A stretch of DNA of 64,000 bases from the NCBI GenBank assembly GCA_033297075.1, contig MU858101.1, positions 1-64,000 on the forward strand. Direction: 5' to 3'. Position numbers and translations under genes: made by a program. The notes beneath the pieces are model-generated. The model saw nothing but the letters and a program-made list of their open reading frames with translations. It had not been told where the DNA came from and did not search any database. Origin of the DNA: Rhypophila decipiens (Eukaryota; Ascomycota; Sordariomycetes; Sordariales; Naviculisporaceae). How positions within the stretch are numbered: position 1 is the first letter of the stretch; each line of letters starts with the position of its first letter. Shown here piece by piece: positions 4,305 to 18,327 of the stretch.

Positions 4305-7300
4305 TCAGCTCTCGGGCATGGGCTCCATGTCCTTCAACAGACACGGCCCTTTGTTCATGTTATTCTCCCACTCGGCCGTCTCGTCGACGCTCACATTGAT
4401 AACCATGAAAATGGATACATGCAAAGCAATCCGTACCTGGGCATACACATATATGGTGTCCTCCTTGTTTGGATGGCCATCATGGATCTCCCCGCGGCAC
4501 GGCCCGCCGATGAGACCCAGGCGAGCCTCGAGCATCAAGTCGGCGGTGGCGACTACCAGGCTGACATGCACCTTGAGCACACAAGTGGCGGCCACGCCGT
4601 AAAGCTCCTTGGAGATGATGATGCTCTGGCTCTGGGTGTAATACGCCGAGGCACCAAACGGGCCAACTTGGAAGGCGACCCCTATCCCAGCGCCTATGGT
4701 CATTCTCACCACGTTGCCGTCAGTGCCTGCCCGTACCAAAAACCCACCTGTCCCGAGGACAAACGGACCAAGACCAGTGGGGATCTTGATGGTCACGTCT
4801 ATCGATAGGGTAAAATTGGCACTGGTGGGCGTGGTGCGGGCCTTGAGCGCAAAGTTGAGAGCCTGGACGATCTCCTTGATGGCTTGGGCACCGGGACCCA
4901 ATTTCTTGAGGAAGTCGTCCAGTCCCATGCTGGTACTGACTTCCATGGCCCACTCGTTGGTGATTGATACCTTCAGGGGCGGGAGGACCTTCAGCTTGTT
5001 GAGAAAGTTGACTACCTTTTGGACCTGGCCGAGGAGCTCCCCGAATATGTGCTCGGCGTCTTTGAAGACGGGGAGGTCCTTGGCCGAGGAGAGGACAGAG
5101 CCGACGACTTTGTTGAGTTCTTTACCGGCTGCGCCCTGGGTGATCATGCTGAGGTTGGTCAGGGAAAGGTCTTTTGTGCCCTTGATGGTGCTGATGGCCA
5201 TGTCGAGGTAGGCGTTGGTCGTCCCGTCGGGCAGCAGGTTACCTGCTGTGCTGACTACCGAGGCAAAGTTCCCATCCTGCTTGAGGAACCGTTTGGCCTC
5301 TTCAAGTGCGAGCTTCTTTCCTTCCTCCAACACGGCCTTGTACTCGTAATGCCCGCCAGCAATAACATCCAGCACCCTGTTGGCATCCTTCAGGGGAATG
5401 CACTTTTCCAGCTCAGGGAAGATGCCTCCGGTCGTGGAAGCAGCCAGGGCAAAGCTATCCGCCAGAATCGGCTCGACGGCACTGGTCAGCCCCTTGACAA
5501 GCTCCCCAGGTGTGGCCCCTGGAATCAGAGCGGGCGAGGGAAACATGACACGATACGAGTCCCCGGAATGAATGAGATTATACCCCGATACCTCCTCGAA
5601 CAAAGACGCTGCCCCAGAGACTTTGATCGCACTGACGACACTCGAGCCGACGTCCAGCCCCTGTCTCACCAGCGGAACACCCCATGAATCAACCGCCTCC
5701 TGGACACCTACTTGCGGGTCCCTTGTTGATCTTGCGACCTTGGTAAATGCCCATTGTCCTCCACTTGCTGGGACAATAGGTGTGCCCCACAGCTCCATGG
5801 GAAACTCTGTGGTGCTTGCGGCAGCTGTATCGTTGGTACAGTTGCCCGCAAGCACTCTCGAGACCCGGACTTTCTGCTCAGAGTTTCTCAGCCGGACGAT
5901 GACATCCACCGGACCACCTAGTCGATTCTTGCTCAACAAATCGACATATTCAGCGGGACTAAGGGGTTTAGGCGGGGCATTCGTCCCCGGCGTCCTAGTA
6001 ACGATATATCCAATCTGCCCTTGAACCGGTACCCACGATGTCTCCGTTGCAGCCCCGTCAACGCCTTCAATCTCCATGAGACAATCATAGCTAACCAGAT
6101 TCTCATTACCACCCTTTTTGTCAACCAACCTGATATTTCGAACGTCTTTGACTCCCCGAACCAATCCGAAATGTACATTGGCTCTTTCCTGTCCGGCAGG
6201 GAGATCCCCAAAGTCATATACGCCATCCGAACAGGCCACCCAGCCAGAATCCGATCCCACGACAACACCGTTATTCTGTCTTAGGATGGTAACAGTGCGA
6301 ATAACACGCACACCGAACGGGTACATGAGACTAATCATCTGCACGACCTGGCGATTTGCCCTCCCCAGCAGGACGTCCATTTCTACCTTGGAGATCCCTA
6401 CATTTGGAAGAGGGAGAGGGGACCAGTTCGAGAAGATTGAGGCGCCATAGCCGGATAAACTGAATCTAGTGAGGGGAGAATGTGTGACAAAGCCGGCGTT
6501 GAACTGGCTGGTTATTACGCCTGGATAGGGCGATTGAGACTGCGGGGTATTGGGTAGCAAGGCTAGGCCGGCGAAGCCTGCGTGCATTTCGGCGACGGTA
6601 CGGGATTGGAATGAGATGTTGGGAGAGGATGTCAGGGTTGCTTTTCCTGTGGAGGAGGGAGCTTGAAAGGCTGGCGGAACTTCTCTCTCAAAGGAGGGCT
6701 GAACGAGTCTCAGGGATTTTCGGGACGGGTTTGTGGCAGTTGCCTGCGTGAGCATGCCGAATGGTAGCATGAAGTTTGCCGTCACCGGGAGAGGTCGGAC
6801 AAGGCCTGGCAGGAGTGGGTTGTACGCTGATACTGCCTTTTGAAGAAGAGCGCTCGGATTCAGAGGCACGAGACTCGCAGACCGCGTGGATATCTTGGTC
6901 GGATAGCCTGCTGCAGATGGGTAGCTGATGTCGCTCCCTGATCCGGGGCTGGCCTCGTCTTCGATGTAGACGGCTTCCCATTGCACTGAGGGAAGACCAA
7001 AGACCTTGAGATTGTTTGCTGGGGCCGAGAAGGTCGTGTTGGCTACTGTGAGGGGAATGGATCCAGTACCCGAAGCCGAGGAAAAGGAGATTCCGAGGTG
7101 GGAGCTGTTGGATGATATGTCCAGCAAGGTGGGATCATTTGCCAGGAACGGGATCAACGGACTGTAGCTTTCCCACTGCTCGAGCTGTTTCGCTTCGATC
7201 TTTTGGGCAAGATCCGAGGCTGGGAGTTTGAACTGGTCTGTCGACGGGTTGAACGGGGACTTGTCCAACGCCACGATCCGGCCCAACGCAAATTCGGAGA

Positions 7301-9080
7301 GTTGGAGGCTGGCGAGGGGGTCGCGGATTCCGTCAAAGAAGAACTGGAATCGCATGCTGAGCTCGTAATCGGCCGGAAGTCGGACAATGTTGGAGACGTA
7401 CGGATCCGGCAGGACCGGCGTGGCTTCGAGTAGTGTTGCCGGGAGATTCAGCGAGCCGGTGACTATGGCCCTATCGTCGGGAGAGTACTCGCCGTAGGTG
7501 AAGAGGTACCGTGGTAGGTCGACTACGAGGAGCATGTTCTCGGCTAGGTACGAGGCTCGCTTCACGGTTTGTTCGTTGGCATATGGAGTACTACGAGCCT
7601 CGATGCTGACATACGGGAGGAGGCCCGGACTTTTGCGAGTGAAGAGAACAACGGCGAGGCCGACGAAGGGCATCCTAGCGCCGTCAATGGATACCGGGGC
7701 GCTGAAGGATCCTGAGAGACCCGTGCTGTAGGTCCATGATTCTTGGCCACTGGACTGGATGAAGTACTTGAATGGGAAGCCTCGCTTGAGCACGTTGGCG
7801 CTGATGGATCTGCTAGTCTGGGCCACGGTGCTCCTCTTGGTCCTGGCGGAGAAACCTTGTGAGGCCGGGTTTCCGTGGAGCCAGAGGTTAAGGCTGCGAG
7901 TTGCGCTGGTCCAGGCCGTCAGACCGGAGATGGTAGCGGCTGTTTCGTCAACGGCTATCTCTATCTCTCCGTAGGTCCAGATGTCCTTGTCGCTGGCGAA
8001 TCGGGATCTTAGGCCGGGGGTCACACGTACTAGAAGGGAGCCGTTGGTTGATACTGGAGCGAATTGAGGCCGAGTGGTGAAGGGTACGACAGGGAGGGCC
8101 CAGTAGGCTCTCGTCACCTCTGCTCTCCCAGAGAAGTGCACCAGGTCGGCATCATTCTCGGCGATGGTGATGGAGCTAGTTCCTGGTACCAAGGGGAACA
8201 GGATCCGGCCGGTCGCTACGTCGTACTCGGCGTTTCCATTTGAGGGCTGATAGTGAAAGTCCAACGAGTGCCCGAACAAGACGCAGGAAGCAGAGAAACT
8301 GGACAAGCTTGGCCGGCCGGGGCTGGGCAGTCCGCTATACCCGATGTTCAATGAAGTGGGAAGCGTCCTCGAGAATCGTGGTCCGAGAGGAGCAGGCCAT
8401 GCAGCCTGAGGCTCGAGCTGGAGCTGGACATAGGACCCCGGGACAGGAGGGGCATAAGAAGAGCCTCCTTTCAAACGCAGTCCGAAATAGCCATTTTCTG
8501 GGGCCGAAGCGACGAAGCCTTTTGCAGGGACCCACATGGTACAGGCACCAAATGTGTAGTTGTACTGGGCATTTGGCACCGGGATGAGGTTGGTGTTGAT
8601 ATACAGGCCATCTCGCACCGCCGCGAAGGTGCTCAGCCTGAAGACTACAAGCTCCAGTCGACGGCCTTGCAGATCAACAAGAGGCCCAGAGGTCGAGAAG
8701 GGGACGAGGTGGACTGCATTGCCATTGCGGACAAACATCTGACTGGATGCATGGGTGTCCACCGGACGAAGACGAACCAGTTGGTTGACGACGAGACTGG
8801 CATCCGGAGGGCGGAGCGAGTCGACCAGACGGTAATCTGCATCTTGCACCGTGATTCCTTCTTGACGGAATGCTCTTTGGTCTGACGAGTCATTCGGTTC
8901 GCCAGGAACGAAAGACAGGGGATCAATGGTCTCTGCGGCCTGTCCGGACAGCACGGCGTACACGATGGCTTGTTGGACGCTTGCGAGCTCTTGTTGTGAC
9001 TGTGATGGCTGCAGGCCCTTGAGAAGATATCCAAGTGCCTCTCGGGCCCTGCTCCAGACAGTATCGGGGATTGGTGCCAT
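4305..9080 (-). CDS. Giant intronless protein of unknown function (1,591 aa)
   Basis: One uninterrupted 4.8-kb reading frame from ATG at 9078-9080 to TGA at 4305. There is no signal peptide and no clear transmembrane helix. The protein seems mainly beta-rich (alternating hydrophobic residues, many Gly/Pro/Ser) to about residue 1200, then alternates helical segments (about 1230-1410) with a final beta-rich domain from about 1424 (DVTIKIPTGLGPFVLGTGGF, then GIGVAFQVGPFGASAYY). Residues 115-128 read MFVRNGNAVHLVPF, and the divergent partner has a similar LVRNGAFVFLVPQ at 208-220. I recognise no characterised domain. A 1,591-codon gene without introns is unusual beside neighbours that have them, which suggests retroposition or transfer from bacteria (inference). 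It is head to head with the 9730-13500 gene and probably co-regulated with it. Coding status is very likely; function is unknown. Confidence 0.88.
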   Translation of the reverse strand: MAPIPDTVWSRAREALGYLLKGLQPSQSQQELASVQQAIVYAVLSGQAAETIDPLSFVPGEPNDSSDQRAFRQEGITVQDADYRLVDSLRPPDASLVVNQLVRLRPVDTHASSQMFVRNGNAVHLVPFSTSGPLVDLQGRRLELVVFRLSTFAAVRDGLYINTNLIPVPNAQYNYTFGACTMWVPAKGFVASAPENGYFGLRLKGGSSYAPPVPGSYVQLQLEPQAAWPAPLGPRFSRTLPTSLNIGYSGLPSPGRPSLSSFSASCVLFGHSLDFHYQPSNGNAEYDVATGRILFPLVPGTSSITIAENDADLVHFSGRAEVTRAYWALPVVPFTTRPQFAPVSTNGSLLVRVTPGLRSRFASDKDIWTYGEIEIAVDETAATISGLTAWTSATRSLNLWLHGNPASQGFSARTKRSTVAQTSRSISANVLKRGFPFKYFIQSSGQESWTYSTGLSGSFSAPVSIDGARMPFVGLAVVLFTRKSPGLLPYVSIEARSTPYANEQTVKRASYLAENMLLVVDLPRYLFTYGEYSPDDRAIVTGSLNLPATLLEATPVLPDPYVSNIVRLPADYELSMRFQFFFDGIRDPLASLQLSEFALGRIVALDKSPFNPSTDQFKLPASDLAQKIEAKQLEQWESYSPLIPFLANDPTLLDISSNSSHLGISFSSASGTGSIPLTVANTTFSAPANNLKVFGLPSVQWEAVYIEDEASPGSGSDISYPSAAGYPTKISTRSASLVPLNPSALLQKAVSAYNPLLPGLVRPLPVTANFMLPFGMLTQATATNPSRKSLRLVQPSFEREVPPAFQAPSSTGKATLTSSPNISFQSRTVAEMHAGFAGLALLPNTPQSQSPYPGVITSQFNAGFVTHSPLTRFSLSGYGASIFSNWSPLPLPNVGISKVEMDVLLGRANRQVVQMISLMYPFGVRVIRTVTILRQNNGVVVGSDSGWVACSDGVYDFGDLPAGQERANVHFGLVRGVKDVRNIRLVDKKGGNENLVSYDCLMEIEGVDGAATETSWVPVQGQIGYIVTRTPGTNAPPKPLSPAEYVDLLSKNRLGGPVDVIVRLRNSEQKVRVSRVLAGNCTNDTAAASTTEFPMELWGTPIVPASGGQWAFTKVARSTRDPQVGVQEAVDSWGVPLVRQGLDVGSSVVSAIKVSGAASLFEEVSGYNLIHSGDSYRVMFPSPALIPGATPGELVKGLTSAVEPILADSFALAASTTGGIFPELEKCIPLKDANRVLDVIAGGHYEYKAVLEEGKKLALEEAKRFLKQDGNFASVVSTAGNLLPDGTTNAYLDMAISTIKGTKDLSLTNLSMITQGAAGKELNKVVGSVLSSAKDLPVFKDAEHIFGELLGQVQKVVNFLNKLKVLPPLKVSITNEWAMEVSTSMGLDDFLKKLGPGAQAIKEIVQALNFALKARTTPTSANFTLSIDVTIKIPTGLGPFVLGTGGFLVRAGTDGNVVRMTIGAGIGVAFQVGPFGASAYYTQSQSIIISKELYGVAATCVLKVHVSLVVATADLMLEARLGLIGGPCRGEIHDGHPNKEDTIYVYAQVRIALHVSIFMVINVSVDETAEWENNMNKGPCLLKDMEPMPES

Positions 9081-9729
9081 CGGGTAGACTGGTGAAGAAC
9101 TTGTGAAGAAGACAGTGATGATCTCAAGATGGATGACCTCTGCAGACCGCGGGTCATGCCTTCTTCACGGGGGTTGCCAAGTATTGGGGAAATCATATCC
9201 TCACTTGCACAAACATCTTGATCCCACTGGGCTCGATGGAGGTCTTGGCGCTCCCCCTTTATCGATCCTATAGGACCAAGCAAACAACCTCGTCACATTC
9301 GGCCTACCACATGTAGCTCTAGACCGACCAACCCCGCTTCAGCCCTATGAGACCCGGCATGGAAAGCAGGATATGCACTCGGTCGGGAGCGTATGCAATG
9401 TTTCGGGATGCGACGACATTGGTTGTCTTGGACGAGGGGTAGCAGACATCATCAATAGCAGCCTGGTGGCTTGCAGAAGCTGAATGTCAAAAGTCTGGGC
9501 ACCAGTTATGGGCATTCCCTGGGCTTAACCGAGCAGAATATGAATGCAAAGGAACTTGAACTTGACCCGGCTCCCCGAGAGACCAAAGTCGTCCTGTGTA
9601 CAGTCTTGTCGAGGTTCTCTTGGCCCCCGGGAATTGATCTCCCATCCAGCTTTCAGTCCCCAACTCTTTCATGGACTTGGGCCCCAATAGCATCCTCCTT
9701 GTTTCCCTGTTCCGTACCTGAACACCATC
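9081..9729. promoter_or_regulatory. Shared divergent promoter region of the giant gene pair
   Basis: 649 bp separate the two divergent ATGs, and no other gene fits here. No clear TATA box stands out. The geometry implies a bidirectional promoter controlling both giant genes; that is inference from layout only. Confidence 0.55.
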
Positions 9730-12700
9730 ATGGCTCCAGCAGACCGTCTGGCCGTGCTGCCCTTTCTCCAGACCTGGAGCGGATCCCAGCTCCAACTGCG
9801 CGTCCTCTTGATCCCACGAGACAGCTTCATTGAGCCCCATGTCCGCATATATCCTCAGTCGGCCGACTTCTTCCCTTCGGCCACCCTCAAGTTCGACGTC
9901 TTGATCCAGCCGGGTCTCGATGCTGTCCCTCTTCGAAACAACGGTGATAACGTCCGTGTCAAAGAGGTGACATTTACCCCTATGGACACGGCCAGGCAGA
10001 TATTTGCCCAGCTGTTGGCTCAGGAGGACCCCATGGCCACCCCTGCCGCTCGACCTTCAAATGGCAGCATGAACAATCTTGGCGTGTTCAAGCATCTGCC
10101 TGCTTCGTATAGAACAGCTGTCGGATACTCGCCAGGGACAGGCGCCAAAGACGGACTCTTCTCGACTGGCAGCCAGTATTCGTGCTCCCTCAAAGAGATG
10201 GCCAGGCCCATCACCTACGAGCCTGTCACTCGACCGACCAGAAAGTCATGGGGTCAGATGATTTCAGGTCTTGTTCGCAACTCCAAGTTTGCCGAGCTGG
10301 CCGGTCTGGTTCGGGCCGTCACAGTCGACATCTCGGCGGCTCAGATGAACTTGGTCCGCAACGGAGCATTCGTCTTCTTGGTGCCCCAAGCTTCTGGTGG
10401 GAGTCCCGCTCTGGCATGCGAGCTCTACTCGGCTCGCATCCCGATCCTTGCAGAGTCTCCCAGGGAACTGTTTACCCCTGTGTTGTTTCCCGTTGTGGAA
10501 GCCTTGCCTGGGTCGGAATACGACGACATCTTTCCTGAAGCAGAGGACTACAGCGATGGCTGGGCGAAGGTGGTGCACTGTCGACAGCCTCAGAGAGCAG
10601 CGGTTGTCAAGGAGGAAGATGACGACGAGAACCCTGGTCAAGCTGAAGAGGCGGCCGGAACCAGACCAGTCAAGGAGATCGGCATCCAGATTGGCTGGGA
10701 CGACCAGCAAGTCACCATCTGGATGGACCGTCAGCTGGACTCGTCCACTGATTCTTTGCAGACTGGGCTCGGGATCCGCGGCTACTGCGTCGATGCGAGG
10801 TTCGCAGGCGAGGGCGATGACAAGTGGCGGTCTCTTGTTCACGCCAAGGGCTCATATGGCGTGGGGACCTTTCGACGAGACGACTTTGATCAAGACTCGG
10901 CCGTTGAAGTACATCCAGCTGCGTCCATTGACAAGGACCAACCGCCCAAGTTCTGGATGCCCATGTACTTTAGCACCTGGACTGGTCCGTCCTTGGTTGG
11001 TCTTGACAACGACCGCATGATTGTGGCAGGTCGTAAGCCGGATGCTGATGCCGGCATGCCCAAGTTGGAGGGAATCGCTCCTCCTGATCTGCCCCTGCTG
11101 TATGGCAGAGACTACGAATTCCGGGTCAGACTGCTGGACCAGACCGGCTGGGGTCCTGGACTCAAGTCTGCCCCAACCAACCCTGCGGTGAATCCAGTCT
11201 TTAACCATCCGTTCCGGAGATGGATCAAGCCGATGACTCCAGTTTTGGTGGGTAGCACGCCCGAAATTTATGGTGACCAGGACGACCGGGACCCCGGGAT
11301 GCTCAGGTTCTTGAGGCCAGGTCTTCAGATGCCAGCTGTCCAGTGCACAAACTACTATCCGGACGCGACAGAGAGACTGAAGGCCATGATTGAGGAGGAT
11401 GACGGCCAGGAACCGTCGCTTCCGGACCCGGATGTTGATAGGCTGGAGATGACTGTCCTGGTCGAAACATTGACCCAGGATACTCTCGTGGTCGACGGCA
11501 ACTTTCGCACTCTTTACAAGACCACTCGCACCTTTTCGTCAGACATCTCTGCCGCTCTTGATCTCGAATTTGACTGGGTGGACTGCTTTGATGTCGACCA
11601 CCCGGACCTGGACGATCCCAATAATACAGATCCGTGGAAGAGCCTGATTCTCACAGGACCGCTCAAGCTGCCCAAGTCTCGAACTGTGCGTCTCTGTGTG
11701 AGATCGCTCTGCAAAGAAGACTCGGCATTGGCATACTTTGGTGCCGATGATGTCCGTCGCAGTCCAGATGTCAAGTTGACTTTGCGCAAAAACGCAGCAA
11801 CAGAGAAGGATCTGTTTACCGCCACCAGTGCCAATGACCGGTTCAATGCGTGCTTCCTGCAGCCTCCAATCGAGGGTGTCAATCCAGCCACGACGGGAAC
11901 TGCTGCTGCCGTGCCCACCCCAGTGTCTCGTCTGGCCACCGAGATTGGGCTGCGCAACGATGGCAACATCCTCCGCTCTGCCCCTGGTCGACGTGTGGTA
12001 TTTGGATGCTCGGCCGGACTTGGGCATGCTATTGGACCTGACGGAAGCAGTCTCAACTTGGCGGGCAATGTCGCGCAACTTTGGATTGCCGTCATCAAAC
12101 TCACCATCAACCGAGACTGGACTTGGGATGGCCTAGTGCACAACAGCATTGTGGTGAGACGAACTATTGGAGACGACACGTCGACTACCATCGAATGCGT
12201 GCGGGTGAGCCCAACCAAGAACGTGAATCACGACGCCCTGTCTGGGCCCGAGATTATCCGCTCTGGCACTGATTTAGTGCTCATCGACGCCTTTGACCCG
12301 CTCCAGATCCCGTCTGCATCTGGCTTTCCCGACGAGATCAACGCCAGATATACAGTAAACTGGGACGTAATCAGGCACAGCGCCAACACTGTCACTCCAC
12401 AAGATGACCCTCTTGTCTTTTCCGTCCGTCTCCCTGTGACCACGGCTCCAACACAGCAACCCATGATCGTCTCGGCCGGCATCGCCCTGTCGCCATATAT
12501 GCCCTCCCCGCGCTACTCTAGCACGGCACCACGAACCCGGATGCTCTGGATCGAGCTCGCCGAGCCACCTCTGGATCCCCAAGACCGCTACTTTGCCCGT
12601 GTTCTCGCCCATGGGCCGGACCCGTTGCTCCTCTACCCGTCTACCAGCTTCAACAAGACTCCCATCCGGCCGGAAGCTCCTCTCCCTCTCGATCCCGAAC

Positions 12701-13500
12701 CCCTGCGACGAATCACGCTCTCTTCTTCTGATGACCGCGCAGGTCTGGACGCAATGCAGCCACTTGTACCCAGCACTTTACCGCCCAATTCACCACCTAA
12801 CACGGCAATCCTCCACTGGGGCCTGCCTCTCCCGCCAGGAACATCAGAAGATTCGCCGGACCTATTCGGCTTTTATACCTACGAAATCGGAGTAGGGCAC
12901 TACACATCCACCAATCCATCTTCTTCGGATCCTGAAAAGGCAAGATGGTGTACCGCGCAATCCCGATTCGGACCGCCCCTCCGCCTAACCGGCGTGCAAC
13001 ATCCCGCCCCGAACTTGGCCTGCGCAGCGTACCGGCCTGCCCCTGTCTCTCCGGATCTCGATATCCCCGATATAGCCGTTGAAGCAACCGCGCCATTAGC
13101 AAAGATATCTTACAAGATAGTCCCGACATCCATATGGTTCATGTTATATGCCCAGGCCCCGCTGTTGACTAATAACCCCAACCCCAACCCAGATGGCGGA
13201 ACTGGAAGCACCCGCCAGAACATCCTCCTGCTGAGACAACACGCTAATGCTTATAAAGAAATCTCGTTATCAGCGGGTGGGTATGCCATTGCGCAGTTTA
13301 AACGAAAGGATGTCCAGCAGGCGCTGCGGCGTGTGGGGTTTAGGACCACGGGCGTTGGACAGGCGCCGTTGAGTGTGCTTGCTGTTGAGATGGTGCAGAG
13401 GCCTGCGGATGCTGCGGCGACGGACCCGCTGGGGTATGGGTTGGGTACGGTCAGGATTTTGAGGGCTAGTTCGTTGGTTGAGGTTCGGGCGAGGTGTTGA
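9730..13500 (+). CDS. Giant intronless protein of unknown function (1,256 aa), divergent partner
   Basis: An uninterrupted 3.8-kb frame with ATG at 9730-9732. No signal peptide or membrane helix is seen. Notable stretches are LVRNGAFVFLVPQ (208-220, compare the partner gene), an acidic linker at about 292-316, GWDDQQVTIWMDRQ (322-335) and LLYGRDYEFRVRLLDQTGWG (456-475), the last resembling a fibronectin-like or other beta-sandwich strand pattern. The rest is beta-prone and Pro-rich. From memory only, phrases like these occur in very large uncharacterised bacterial proteins; I could not check this. Absence of introns and the head-to-head partner suggest the two genes moved or were maintained as a unit. 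Function unknown. Confidence 0.88.
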   Translation: MAPADRLAVLPFLQTWSGSQLQLRVLLIPRDSFIEPHVRIYPQSADFFPSATLKFDVLIQPGLDAVPLRNNGDNVRVKEVTFTPMDTARQIFAQLLAQEDPMATPAARPSNGSMNNLGVFKHLPASYRTAVGYSPGTGAKDGLFSTGSQYSCSLKEMARPITYEPVTRPTRKSWGQMISGLVRNSKFAELAGLVRAVTVDISAAQMNLVRNGAFVFLVPQASGGSPALACELYSARIPILAESPRELFTPVLFPVVEALPGSEYDDIFPEAEDYSDGWAKVVHCRQPQRAAVVKEEDDDENPGQAEEAAGTRPVKEIGIQIGWDDQQVTIWMDRQLDSSTDSLQTGLGIRGYCVDARFAGEGDDKWRSLVHAKGSYGVGTFRRDDFDQDSAVEVHPAASIDKDQPPKFWMPMYFSTWTGPSLVGLDNDRMIVAGRKPDADAGMPKLEGIAPPDLPLLYGRDYEFRVRLLDQTGWGPGLKSAPTNPAVNPVFNHPFRRWIKPMTPVLVGSTPEIYGDQDDRDPGMLRFLRPGLQMPAVQCTNYYPDATERLKAMIEEDDGQEPSLPDPDVDRLEMTVLVETLTQDTLVVDGNFRTLYKTTRTFSSDISAALDLEFDWVDCFDVDHPDLDDPNNTDPWKSLILTGPLKLPKSRTVRLCVRSLCKEDSALAYFGADDVRRSPDVKLTLRKNAATEKDLFTATSANDRFNACFLQPPIEGVNPATTGTAAAVPTPVSRLATEIGLRNDGNILRSAPGRRVVFGCSAGLGHAIGPDGSSLNLAGNVAQLWIAVIKLTINRDWTWDGLVHNSIVVRRTIGDDTSTTIECVRVSPTKNVNHDALSGPEIIRSGTDLVLIDAFDPLQIPSASGFPDEINARYTVNWDVIRHSANTVTPQDDPLVFSVRLPVTTAPTQQPMIVSAGIALSPYMPSPRYSSTAPRTRMLWIELAEPPLDPQDRYFARVLAHGPDPLLLYPSTSFNKTPIRPEAPLPLDPEPLRRITLSSSDDRAGLDAMQPLVPSTLPPNSPPNTAILHWGLPLPPGTSEDSPDLFGFYTYEIGVGHYTSTNPSSSDPEKARWCTAQSRFGPPLRLTGVQHPAPNLACAAYRPAPVSPDLDIPDIAVEATAPLAKISYKIVPTSIWFMLYAQAPLLTNNPNPNPDGGTGSTRQNILLLRQHANAYKEISLSAGGYAIAQFKRKDVQQALRRVGFRTTGVGQAPLSVLAVEMVQRPADAAATDPLGYGLGTVRILRASSLVEVRARC

Positions 13501-16007
13501 TTTTGTTGAATGGTAAATGGTGAAGATGTTCTAAAGAAACTCCGAATTCCCGTCGGGCGAGTACCTGACGTCCAAAAAGAGACTTGTTTTGTTTGTCAAT
13601 TTAATCCCATATTTAAGTGGTACTTGTCATCCGTACCGATATCTTGCTGTTGAATACCAGATAGCGTTCATACATCTTGTACCATTATGGTACTACGTAC
13701 AGATACTACTGTTCATAAAGGTAACGTTAGATAGAAATGATGATTAACTCTGTTTACATCTTTTATTCTCGCCCCTGATTTTGGCAAAACAGCAAACCAG
13801 ACTGATTACACACTAAAAGTATATCAGTGTTTAAAGCTCAAGAACTCCTTCATTATCGAACATCGGCACTCATAATCAGCATGGGAAATGATAGTTTATC
13901 TTAACTACTTATCTATCTTGGCCTCTGATTCTACAGGCCGCGCATATCTCATACATACACCAGGAATACGGGTTACCATGCACGTCTAGTGTGGCTTTGA
14001 GCTATATAACTGCCGTTAAAGCCCCTTCTGGGATTAGTACAACGGCTACATCACAGCTGAATTATGTAAGTGACTTGACTGATAGGAACGATATTCTAGA
14101 AACGGATTAGCACTGAGGCGCTGCATGTTTCAAAAGACCTTATTCCATCTTGCTTGGACACCGTTGGTCACCCCACCGTCCGTGATCCATTTCTGTGCAG
14201 GTGCAGCGCGAACCAGAAGCAAGAACACGCAGCCAAGATATTTATACTTTTGTTCCAGCAAACCTTCAAACTACCCGACCCTCCATCTTGGCCCTCCCGT
14301 TCAGTGGTTCACCAAGCTCATGATCTGACCCAGATGATAGATCCTCACCCCAGCTGTCTTTTAAGTCATGGATTTGACTAAGCGCACCTATCAAGCTGGC
14401 AGTTTTCCAATATTCTGCACTTCAACAGCTTGGGCTTGTAGATCTTGAAACAAAACAGAATAGACTATTGATTCTCGACGTTGGCTAAGCTGACGATAGG
14501 TCACATGCAGTCTTGTGTGGGTGACCTTTCCCAACGGTGTTCTTGAGCCAAGTGCCCAGCTTGCTGCTTCCTTGCGGTAAGGACAAGCCCAGACTACAGT
14601 TGACCTGCAGGAACACGAGACCGTCTTTTGTCCTGCCTGTTTTCGACTCATCAAATTTCATTCCCGACCAGCATGTTTGATGGTTTGTGTTGTCGTACAA
14701 GTTCTACATATCAAGATGACCTCGGACCGCAGAGCCGACTCACCGAGCACAAGTCAAAGTCGGTGAGTTCCAACTGGGTGAAAGATCACATCAGACAATT
14801 TACCATCAGGCACAGTACAGCAGAACCTTGCGTGATGCTCTGACCGTTCCGCTAAGCCAGCGGACGATCCCGCGAACGGCATGCATGCCTCGCAGACGCG
14901 GGAGGCGGGATGGCCATGTCAACGGCATGCCCATTACAGTGTAGCGTAGCCAATATACCACATAGTAGGTGCCCATAGTGCCACATGCTAAGATCAAAAG
15001 TCTCCTAGCGTCCATTCGTCAAGCCCTAGGGAGAAATAAATAGCCTCTATACTACCTGCAGGTTGCACCAAGATGACCCGAATGTGCACCGGTGAGGTGA
15101 CGAGGTGAGTAGCTCGCTAGACGAATGAAATCACCTTCCCCTTTTCATGGTTTCTTTGATAAGCATGGAAAAAGTCCCCCCCACCCTTCCCACGCCCTCG
15201 CATGTGCAGCTGCGAGGCAAAGCACCGGTCAACTGGGACTAATATGTGCAAGCCCAGCGATTTGAGGTGTGAACATGCCACAGACCGGGTTAATACGGCG
15301 TAAGCAAGGCAAGCCAGCGACGGGATTGGACGCCTGTCTGTAGAGTTCCTGGTGAACCACAGTAAGTGGAATTTAGGTTCGACATCCATCAAGATAATAT
15401 TACAGGTCAAAAGATCTGACCACCACCCATGGTAGCACAATACCGGGTTCAAGAAGCCTGTCACAGATTGGGCAACGACATTCGTAGACGATACGAGAGA
15501 GACGAGTCGAGATCCTTAATCATCCCTCTGCAGGTGTTGAATAGATTGTAGAAAGTGTTATGTAACAAGCCCTGGCTCACCTCCCTACCTCGCCTCTTTG
15601 GGGATACAGTATACATTACGGGTTCATTAATCGAGCAGACACACCGATGCCCATAGCCACCACCATCAAGCGCATCCTGGTGATCGAAATGCCTGACCGA
15701 GGACAGACTCTTGGCTCTCTCTCATCATGGGAAGATGCCCGAGATGCCCGCGCGTGTGAAAAGGCGCATCGACCTGCATGCCAAAGACTATTGAGATGAG
15801 CTAAGGCATGTTTTCAAGTTGATATTGCAAAGGTGAGGATGGAAGACCGCCGCGTGACTGACAGAGCCGTCTATAAAGACTCGATCATCTCTCCTGTTCA
15901 TCAGCTCAGTCTTGTTCTCCTCCATCCCTCAGATCATCATACTCATTCAGAACCCCAAAATTATTTATTTGAGATATCCAATCAACAAACATTTAATTCT
16001 TTACAAT
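13501..16007. other. Long gene-free stretch, AT-rich in its first 600 bp
   Basis: About 2.5 kb without a supportable gene. The part at roughly 13600-14110 is visibly AT-rich and stop-dense, while 14100-15830 is of mixed composition with only short incoherent frames. It may be degraded repeat or transposon DNA, but no terminal repeats or coding remnants were recognised. Confidence 0.45.
15872..15877 (+). promoter_or_regulatory. TATA box of the small secreted protein gene
   Basis: TATAAA lies 136 bp upstream of the ATG at 16008, leaving a leader of about 100 nt that is A/C-rich just before the start, as is common for fungal genes. Confidence 0.5.
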
Positions 16008-16410
16008 ATGGTCAGAATCACCAAGCTCGCTCTCGCCCTCGCGGCTACTGCCATCACAGGCGTCAGCGCCATCAAGAAGCCATGCCGTTACCCCTATGAC
16101 AACTGCGGCTGGGTCCTGGCCAGTGCCGAGTACGGTAGGTTGACAGCTTTCTTACTCGCCTCGTCATACTTCTTGGTCAACCATGACATACATCACACCT
16201 TGACCTACCTCTTACCATCATGCTAACAAGACAACAGGCTACACATACGCGCAGCTCCAGGCAGCGGCCAATACCACCGTCGGCCATCTGATCTACGATG
16301 CCGTGTACAGCTGCATGGACTTGGCCGGAACCATCGAGTACGCATATGCCTGCAGTGGGCCGGGTCAGTGCCAAACTGGCGTCGTGCCCAACGACAACTG
16401 CCTGACATGA
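16008..16410 (+). CDS. Small secreted cysteine-rich protein (99 aa, one intron)
   Basis: Exons are 16008-16134 and 16238-16410. The intron 16135-16237 has donor GTAGGT, branch GCTAAC at 16222 and acceptor CAG. The product begins with a signal peptide (MVRITKLALALAATAITGVS, then A) and leaves a mature part of about 78 residues with six cysteines (KPCRYPYDNCGW, YSCMD, YACSG, GQCQ, DNCLT), which could form three disulfides. There are Tyr/Gly-rich stretches (YGYTYAQLQAA). Size, secretion signal and even Cys count fit a fungal effector-like or hydrophobin-unrelated small secreted protein. I know no defined domain. It lies 277 bp from the 3' end of the esterase gene, which is convergent. Confidence 0.8.
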
Positions 16411-16686
16411 GGACATGTATTGCATGGCAAGGACTCGGACTTCGTTGTACCAGTCCTGTCCGGGTACCGAAGTCTTGTAAATGGTCAGGAGCACAAATGA
16501 ACCTCTTCTTAGTCTATCAGTCCAAAGTTCAAAGGTATCATGATGGATCATCATGTAACTTTTTCTTGAGTAAATTTCAGCTTCATATTTACTAGCATCC
16601 ATAGTCAAGTCTTACAAGCACCTCAATCTCATCCAAACAAGAGAAATCAAACAACAATTCCAACCTTGTATCCACTGACCTGCTCC

Positions 16687-18327
16687 CTAAGAACGGGGCC
16701 TATCCGGATCATACGCATCATCAAAGACAGGACAGCGCCCATCAACAACAACCGGATCAACCAACGTAATCCCATCCCTCCCTCCCTCCCCACCAATATT
16801 CGCCAACGACTCTTTCACACTCCCATACGGCACCCATCCCGGCCCAGAAGCAGGGTCCCGTGCAAAAGCCCCCCAAGCAGCCATCATCTTCCTACTAAGC
16901 TCCTGATTCGCCTTGCTTGCTGCTTGAGAAGACGGCCCAAACACAAAAGCAACATCGCTCCCATGGCCCGCTAACCTGCCTCCAGGAAGCGAAGCATTAA
17001 ACACATACCTCCATATCGGATTCGTCCCCAGCGCCGCAATCAAGTTGGCGTCGTACGTCGTCGTGCATGCAAAGTGGAAATCGGAATGGAGCATGTGTTT
17101 GGCGTCTGCTTCTGTCTGGATCTGCCAGCTCGTCCCCGGGGCATACGCCCTCTTGACAGCTTCCCGGTTGGTGGTGTCGTTGCTGCCCGGGTAGATAACG
17201 TCGACCCACTGATCAAAACCCTTGGATGCAATTCCTGCTGTTGGGAAGATATTCCCTTCGTCAAAGGTACTCCCCACCAGCACCGGGACGTCGACAGTCC
17301 GCCCGGCTCGTCGTGCAGAATCTGAATCCCCGACACTAGAAAGACCGTCGTCGTCCACGGGTGGAAACAAAAGGTTGACCCTGGAGACAGCGCTCTTGAC
17401 CTCGTCGAACGTCTTGGCCTGGACACAAGGCAGCACCTTCTCCCCTTCAAGCTCACAATTCAGCGCCCGAGCCAGCGTAAAGAAGGGCATCTCGTCCTCT
17501 CTATTCCCCGTCCCTAAACCAGTCACATCCCGCCCAATCCCCAGGGCTACCCTCGTAAAAGTATGTAATCCCCCAGATTGCATTATTGCCCCCTGAAACA
17601 AGGACTTCTCCTTCTCAAACGGCTGGCTGAGTAATTTAGCATCAACCGACACCGCCCCTGCACTCTCCCCAAAGATCGTAACCCTGTCAGGATCCCCTCC
17701 AAACAAGTTGATATTGTCCTTAACCCACTCCAAAACAAGCTTCTGATCTCCAAACCCCGCGTTCAGCTCGGTGGGCGGGATACCGGGGACTTTTCCTGGA
17801 AAGCCAAAGACTCCGAGGCGGTATTGCGCCGCTATGACGATGACATTTTCATTTGCTGCCAGGATCGAGCCGTCGGTTCCAGAGATCGAGCCGGATTGGA
17901 GAGCCCCGCCGTGCCACCAGATCATTACTGGTACCGGCTTTTTTTCATCCTTCTTCTTGGTGGAGGAATTGTTGGGAGCAGGGGCAGGGGCGAAGAGATT
18001 GAGAAAGAGACAATCTTCCCTTTCTGTGCAGGAAAATGGCTGGGTGGTAGCTCTGATGAAACTTGTGCTGTCGTTGCGTGGGGAGGGACTGGGAAGTCGA
18101 GCGGCGAGGAAGCGCTTGGGGGGCGGCGAGCCGAATCGGATTCCGAGGAATTTGTTCACTGTTACGGCGGTTGCGGCTCCGGTTGAGGATGGGGAGATGG
18201 TTATTTTTGTGGTTGTCCCTTCGTAGGCTGCATCTTTGAGTTTGACTGTTGGGTTTCTTGGTGTTACTGTTGCTTGGGATGATGCTAAGCTGAGGCAGCT
18301 TGAGAGGAGGAGGGTTTGGAACTTCAT
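16687..18327 (-). CDS. Secreted type-B carboxylesterase/lipase (alpha/beta hydrolase)
   Basis: 546 aa, intronless. A signal peptide (MKFQTLLLSSCLSLASSQA) directs export. The carboxylesterase type-B signatures are present: EDCLFLNLFAP (about 104-114), oxyanion-loop WHGGALQSG (138-146), nucleophile GESAG with Ser222, an acidic residue near 356-357 in VGSTFDEGNIF, and His455 in GHGSDVAFVFG. Family members cleave carboxylic esters such as lipids, cholinesters or plant-wall esters; substrate cannot be read from sequence. Length matches the family (about 530-570 aa). Catalytic triad looks complete, so it should be active. Confidence 0.93.
   Translation of the reverse strand: MKFQTLLLSSCLSLASSQATVTPRNPTVKLKDAAYEGTTTKITISPSSTGAATAVTVNKFLGIRFGSPPPKRFLAARLPSPSPRNDSTSFIRATTQPFSCTEREDCLFLNLFAPAPAPNNSSTKKKDEKKPVPVMIWWHGGALQSGSISGTDGSILAANENVIVIAAQYRLGVFGFPGKVPGIPPTELNAGFGDQKLVLEWVKDNINLFGGDPDRVTIFGESAGAVSVDAKLLSQPFEKEKSLFQGAIMQSGGLHTFTRVALGIGRDVTGLGTGNREDEMPFFTLARALNCELEGEKVLPCVQAKTFDEVKSAVSRVNLLFPPVDDDGLSSVGDSDSARRAGRTVDVPVLVGSTFDEGNIFPTAGIASKGFDQWVDVIYPGSNDTTNREAVKRAYAPGTSWQIQTEADAKHMLHSDFHFACTTTYDANLIAALGTNPIWRYVFNASLPGGRLAGHGSDVAFVFGPSSQAASKANQELSRKMMAAWGAFARDPASGPGWVPYGSVKESLANIGGEGGRDGITLVDPVVVDGRCPVFDDAYDPDRPRS

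Follow-up and report, generated by a model that had tools for sequence, protein, structure and literature searches.

Operon capture by fungi has a precedent: yeasts have reportedly acquired a bacterial siderophore operon (Kominek et al. 2019, Cell), a co-transcribed gene set that was kept together in its new host. Among bacteria, very large beta-rich proteins encoded in one operon are known from the Tc/Rhs toxin complexes, which occur patchily in environmental species. The locus described here, found in Rhypophila decipiens, shares features with both systems. Its two genes, designated A and B, have likewise been kept together in a fungus, and they code for two very large beta-rich proteins that are patchily distributed and form one operon in bacteria. 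Unlike the yeast siderophore genes, however, A and B are two giant, non-metabolic genes, they reside in filamentous fungi, and they are divergent in the analyzed DNA. The Tc/Rhs complexes differ in that the C-terminus of B is conserved, with a cysteine within the last 12 residues in 176 of 182 proteins (as the final residue in 121 of 182), and lacks a variable effector; no Pfam match of the Rhs/YD-repeat or TcB/SpvB type was found in 28 A and 32 B proteins. Taken as a whole, the most likely explanation is that a bacterial A–B operon was captured by Pezizomycotina and, in R. decipiens, rearranged into two divergent genes.

The gene pair in Rhypophila decipiens

The window, i.e., the whole analyzed stretch of 64,000 nucleotides (contig MU858101.1, positions 1–64,000), contains the pair as follows:

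4305–9080, minus strand: gene A, 1591 amino acids, without introns; homologous to the first operon gene of bacteria
9730–13500, plus strand: gene B, 1256 amino acids, without introns; homologous to the second operon gene of bacteria
9081–9729: intergenic region, 649 bp between the start codons, GC 0.527; presumed shared divergent promoter

Genes A and B lie head to head, and each is one intact open frame from ATG to stop. Since homologues exist for both, they were regarded as genes and not as chance frames; moreover, no intron is required in either, because both can be aligned over their whole length with bacterial proteins that have no interruption. The initial annotation had described two giant intronless divergent frames about 650 bp apart, and its coordinates, lengths, and gap were all reproduced. 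A single copy of each gene was found in the genome of 45.7 Mb.

The contig carrying the pair is fungal. A Pfam scan of ten other frames of the window revealed, among others, ALG10, EMP70, carboxylesterase, and GH43 families, as well as a DEAD-box helicase with the SPB4 extension. Along the window, GC falls from about 0.57 to 0.48 beyond 13 kb; the stretch 13500–16500, with a GC of approximately 0.48, is without large frames and lies between gene B and the carboxylesterase gene (16687–18327). The accessory setting that had been proposed for the flanks, or a mobile one, gained no support, and no DUF3435 match was detected on the contig.

The bacterial operon and its neighborhood

One genome per prokaryote species was scanned (84,980 species), which confirmed 199 stretches encoding relatives of B, and the best 80 were kept. 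In 76 of these best 80 of 199 loci, the tblastn search detected a homologue of A that immediately precedes B and shares its strand. In the remaining four (L003, L027, L039, and L052), the sequence ahead of the B match is only 462, 118, 754, and 10 bases long, respectively: L039 gave no A match in its 0.75 kb, and the other three are too short to show A. When a frame picker was applied to 75 loci, both genes were recovered in 71, and in every one of these A precedes B in the same orientation. The A–B gap, the length of which depends on the start codons picked, had a median of 21 bp and was within 100 bp in 66 of the 71 loci and 114–764 bp in the others. The bacterial homologues of both proteins are full-length, and the fungal and bacterial A profiles matched with a probability of 100% (E 5e-194, 1419 columns). 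The initial annotation had suggested looking for bacterial genomes in which the homologues are adjacent; A indeed adjoins B in all 76 loci where A was detectable. However, the genes form a same-strand operon there, and the divergent arrangement was seen in none of the bacterial loci.

According to the record names, these loci belong to Pseudomonadota, Actinomycetota, Bacteroidota, Acidobacteriota, Cyanobacteriota, Myxococcota, Planctomycetota, an Ignavibacteriae MAG, and Chloroflexota. A–B is thus an operon of two genes that spans at least nine bacterial phyla, and the pair is without a model in four family libraries (Pfam, NCBIfam, PHROGs, and PADLOC). Window A and window B had no Pfam match at E ≤ 10, in line with the earlier statement that neither protein has a recognizable domain, and no match in a PDB sequence search at E ≤ 1. 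In larger sets, Pfam returned single-member rows only, with a best E of 0.048 for 28 A proteins and 0.077 for 32 B proteins. For six proteins (bacterial members and window A), NCBIfam gave no family, and Pfam and PHROGs each returned a single weak row (E 0.28 and 0.36, respectively). No PADLOC family was matched at E ≤ 1 by five bacterial A and B proteins.

The distribution of the operon is patchy: in a single-protein search, 6 of 299 genomes of the Rhodopila family matched the Rhodopila B, the query genome included. A–B is present on complete plasmids of Chlorohelix and Microvirga terrae, and a plasmid location was found in four records. On the Microvirga terrae plasmid (L101, 7172–15636), transposase genes flank the pair on both sides, and the end of A and the start of B have one base in common (11986), which suggests translational coupling. 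In the Tistrella mobilis plasmid pTM1 (L012, 5486–9978; also L102), the A homologue shifts frame at approximately 8491–8521 and the annotation covers its first part only; the copy is either broken or mis-sequenced. In Parapedobacter (L069, 9986–13960), B is split into two frames, and a plasmid of Microvirga sp. VF16 that bears recombinases and transposases has a piece matching only 32% of B (L103, 12001–13161). The last two loci show that the pair decays in some bacteria.

No third conserved gene was found, as no Pfam family occurred in more than two of 50 same-strand neighbors; the commonest, DUF1501 and Metallophos, were present in two of 50 each. Single neighbors had PLD-like, patatin, M48, and metallophosphatase domains, and single neighbors matched the PtuA, PtuB, and ZorB models, each in one of 50 (among the first 25 of 55 families); these single matches were treated as noise. 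In Mycobacterium sp. OTB74 (L059, 13628–17266), B is followed by a gene for a 1213-aa protein with TIG, peptidoglycan-binding, and PLD-like domains, part of which resembles a stretch beside B in Edaphobacter, a member of another phylum (L019, 14388–15221; 28% over 309 aa).

Origin of the pair in fungi

The search with B returned 114 rows including its own, 106 of which cover at least 90% of the protein. They comprise the named fungi Apodospora, Glutinoglossum, Ilyonectria, Xylographa, Neophaeococcomyces, Tricladium, Trichoglossum, Ophiobolus, and Cenococcum, and, among named bacteria, a Terriglobales MAG, Nocardia, Mycobacterium, and Bradyrhizobium. For A, five homologues were found besides itself, namely Apodospora P0116, three proteins at 52–55% identity, and the distant P0120 at 24%; a profile search gave five of the same six rows and nothing new. 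A fungal A partner was thus seen only near the Apodospora group, in searches that both require shared exact words and can miss A in other fungi. The nearest relatives of both window proteins are those of Apodospora (60–71% identical), in which the two genes have consecutive locus tags. P0004 and P0117 are encoded on contigs of identical length (28,586), which are probably one and the same. The B protein from a lichen assembly of Xylographa carneopallida (P0010) has 1164 aa, as in the Rhodopila type, and does not belong to the main fungal clade; its gene may come from bacteria living in the lichen.

In a quick IQ-TREE analysis of 41 B rows, the window protein, seven named fungi, and three further rows formed a clade (SH-aLRT 99). 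This clade sits in a set of 24 rows (support 100) together with the Rhodopila MAG (L002), Xylographa, and Cenococcum; both of these fungi fall outside the main fungal clade, and the Cenococcum protein groups apart with two other rows. Against named bacteria alone, nine fungi including Cenococcum were on one side of a branch with support 94. A FastTree of 109 rows had the same outline. Thus, in the B trees, which are quick or FastTree and midpoint-rooted, fungal B nests within bacterial diversity, and the direction of transfer rests on this nesting. The Rhodopila locus is also the best of the 80 loci for both window proteins, with 434 bits for A (next 248; 74 of 80 loci match) and 765 bits for B (next 532); therefore, A and B point to one lineage. 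Since L002 is the only named bacterium of the 24-row set and its other non-fungal rows are metagenome proteins, the donor and the number of transfers are uncertain; one transfer is the simplest assumption, and a few are possible. The identities of A and B are correlated (0.948, 66 pairs of genes), as is expected of co-inherited genes; shared descent accounts for the correlation, and contact between the proteins is not implied by it.

The initial annotation had considered the genes imported or retained as a unit and akin to large bacterial proteins, which the homologues of both genes and the position of fungal B uphold; neither vertical spread through fungi nor a lack of adjacency was found. 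However, the pair is not foreign by composition. GC is 0.566 in A and 0.572 in B versus 0.69 in the Rhodopila operon, and GC3 (0.65 and 0.63) falls within the range of 15 other window frames of at least 200 codons (0.55–0.75). Because GC resembles that of the host, the transfer looks old. Codon use hardly discriminates the origin: A and B correlate with the host frames at 0.80 and 0.77 and with Rhodopila at 0.67 and 0.69, respectively, while host and Rhodopila correlate at 0.80 and A with B only at 0.68.

Altogether, the bacterial origin of A–B is well supported. Two other explanations of its presence in R. decipiens were considered. Bacterial contamination or misassembly would account for the bacterial homologues and the lack of introns; it can practically be dismissed, given the fungal core genes within the same window, the host-like GC and GC3 next to the far higher GC of the nearest bacterial operon, the closest relatives in another fungus, and a divergent arrangement that none of the bacterial loci has. 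Old vertical descent within fungi combined with wide loss, the bacteria having obtained the pair elsewhere or by common ancestry, would agree with its occurrence in several classes of Pezizomycotina and its old composition. We consider this very improbable, since the bacterial diversity is much deeper than the fungal one and, in trees that are unrooted, fungal B lies on one side branch with Rhodopila. Under the capture of a bacterial operon, the source would be the operon with the order A then B that is scattered across many phyla, and Pezizomycotina would have received it in one transfer or a few, the donor being a lineage close to that of the Rhodopila MAG. In R. decipiens, the operon would have become a divergent pair, most simply by inversion of one gene after the transfer, with each gene having its own transcript from the putative common promoter at 9081–9729.

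Predicted structure and possible role

The structure models bore out the earlier view that both proteins are beta-rich. The model of A consists of beta-meanders and ends in a C-terminal sheet that is amphipathic and porin-like, and that of B is rich in beta-sandwiches. The following parts were distinguished:

4332–5009, minus strand: A residues 1358–1583, predicted C-terminal sheet like part of a porin-type barrel
4410–4820, minus strand: A residues 1421–1557, seven long amphipathic strands in succession
10693–10734, plus strand: B motif GWDDQQVTIWMDRQ, within the most conserved stretch of the family
11101–11154, plus strand: B stretch YGRDYEFRVRLLDQTGWG, conserved, with likeness to an FN3 strand pair
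12448–13497, plus strand: B residues 907–1256, probable FN3-like pair of C-terminal beta-sandwiches, by analogy with the modelled Rhodopila homologue
13495–13497, plus strand: C-terminal cysteine of B

In the motif GWDDQQVTIWMDRQ of B, residues W323, D324, D325, Q327, and W331 are invariant in 32 sequences. The C-terminal half of the B model matched FN3/Ig-like beta-sandwich arrays such as those of cytokine receptors, tissue factor, and complement C3. This is a likeness of fold only: no FN3 family model of Pfam matched window B or the 32 B proteins, and the profile match of YGRDYEFRVRLLDQTGWG to FN3con reached only E 1.1. The predicted amphipathic meander and porin-like sheet of A recall Gram-negative outer-membrane beta-barrels of the CymA or OprD type; the match comes from a model of middling confidence, and an ordinary curved sheet is possible. 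The fungal A rows have weak alternation (0.9) in one of the seven strands. Unlike these barrels, A has no signal peptide, its sheet, seen as a part-barrel in the model only, is joined to a giant protein, and it occurs in Actinomycetota and fungi. An ordinary porin is therefore disfavored by the missing signal peptide and by the occurrence in Actinomycetota and fungi.

A hydrophobic N-terminal segment was absent from 69 of 69 A and 181 of 182 B proteins in a crude Kyte–Doolittle scan, which is not a dedicated predictor; the initial annotation had likewise noted no signal peptide. Its further claim that neither protein has a membrane helix was in keeping with window B, in which the hydropathy of 19-residue stretches peaks at 1.37, but was less clear for window A, which reaches 1.80 at residue 1493, within the predicted amphipathic strands. 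By this rough test, a stretch above 1.6 is present in 67 of 69 A and 36 of 182 B proteins.

Since A and B were not found apart and no third gene is common to the loci, the two proteins are likely to act as one complex. The initial annotation had likewise suggested a two-component complex, whose genes would be transcribed together. The complex probably stays in the cytosol or exits the cell by a route that needs no classical signal peptide. Its biochemical role can be inferred only weakly. The best reading is a two-subunit complex, possibly engaging membranes or lipids; more specifically, we tentatively suggest, with the balance tilted against it, that A may meet lipid or membrane via the C-terminal amphipathic sheet and that B may serve as a beta-sandwich scaffold or binding arm. 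Somewhat more doubtful is the broader picture of a self-sufficient two-protein machine of a new kind, in which a signal-less giant with a membrane-inserting or lipid-holding sheet and its obligate beta-sandwich partner would be portable across at least nine bacterial phyla and into fungal cytoplasm, where the pair would have been rebuilt on a bidirectional promoter. A service in conflict with other organisms is a guess drawn from the patchy and mobile spread of the pair, and we regard it as rather unlikely.

Such a conflict role could take the form of a secreted or released toxin-like complex that acts on the membranes of others, in the style of two-part insecticidal complexes. Two giant partners in one patchy and at times plasmid-borne operon, the possibly porin-like sheet of A, and the domains of the single neighbors would fit this reading; however, A and B match no known toxin family, the conserved end of B has no variable C-terminal part, the domain-bearing neighbors are single cases, and a signal peptide is absent, so that it is at best a minor candidate. 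Slightly less probable still is an intracellular complex for lipid or granule handling, in which the amphipathic sheets of A would hold lipid. The amphipathic strands and the absence of a signal peptide agree with it, and ApoB100 was the top Foldseek row of A (E 4.4e-5), although at a TM of about 0.1 and a probability of 0.35; in addition, lipid genes do not recur nearby. An anti-phage defence pair is brought to mind by the single neighbors resembling PtuA, PtuB, and ZorB, and by the type I-D CRISPR genes that start approximately 10 kb downstream of A–B on the Chlorohelix plasmid. It appears improbable, as each of those neighbor matches occurs once in 50, the bacterial proteins gave no PADLOC match, no enzymatic domain was recognized, and the pair has been retained in fungi. 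The two-subunit complex with a possible affinity for membranes or lipids is the reading that we retain.

A statement in PMC11952965 calls the activation of bacterial operons after transfer to a eukaryote largely unknown. A–B offers a natural case for this question: here, activation may have come about by inversion into two divergent genes that share one promoter region. In addition, the fungal locus brings to light a gene pair that is conserved in at least nine bacterial phyla, had no match in the four family libraries, and can be tested for its role in culturable organisms.
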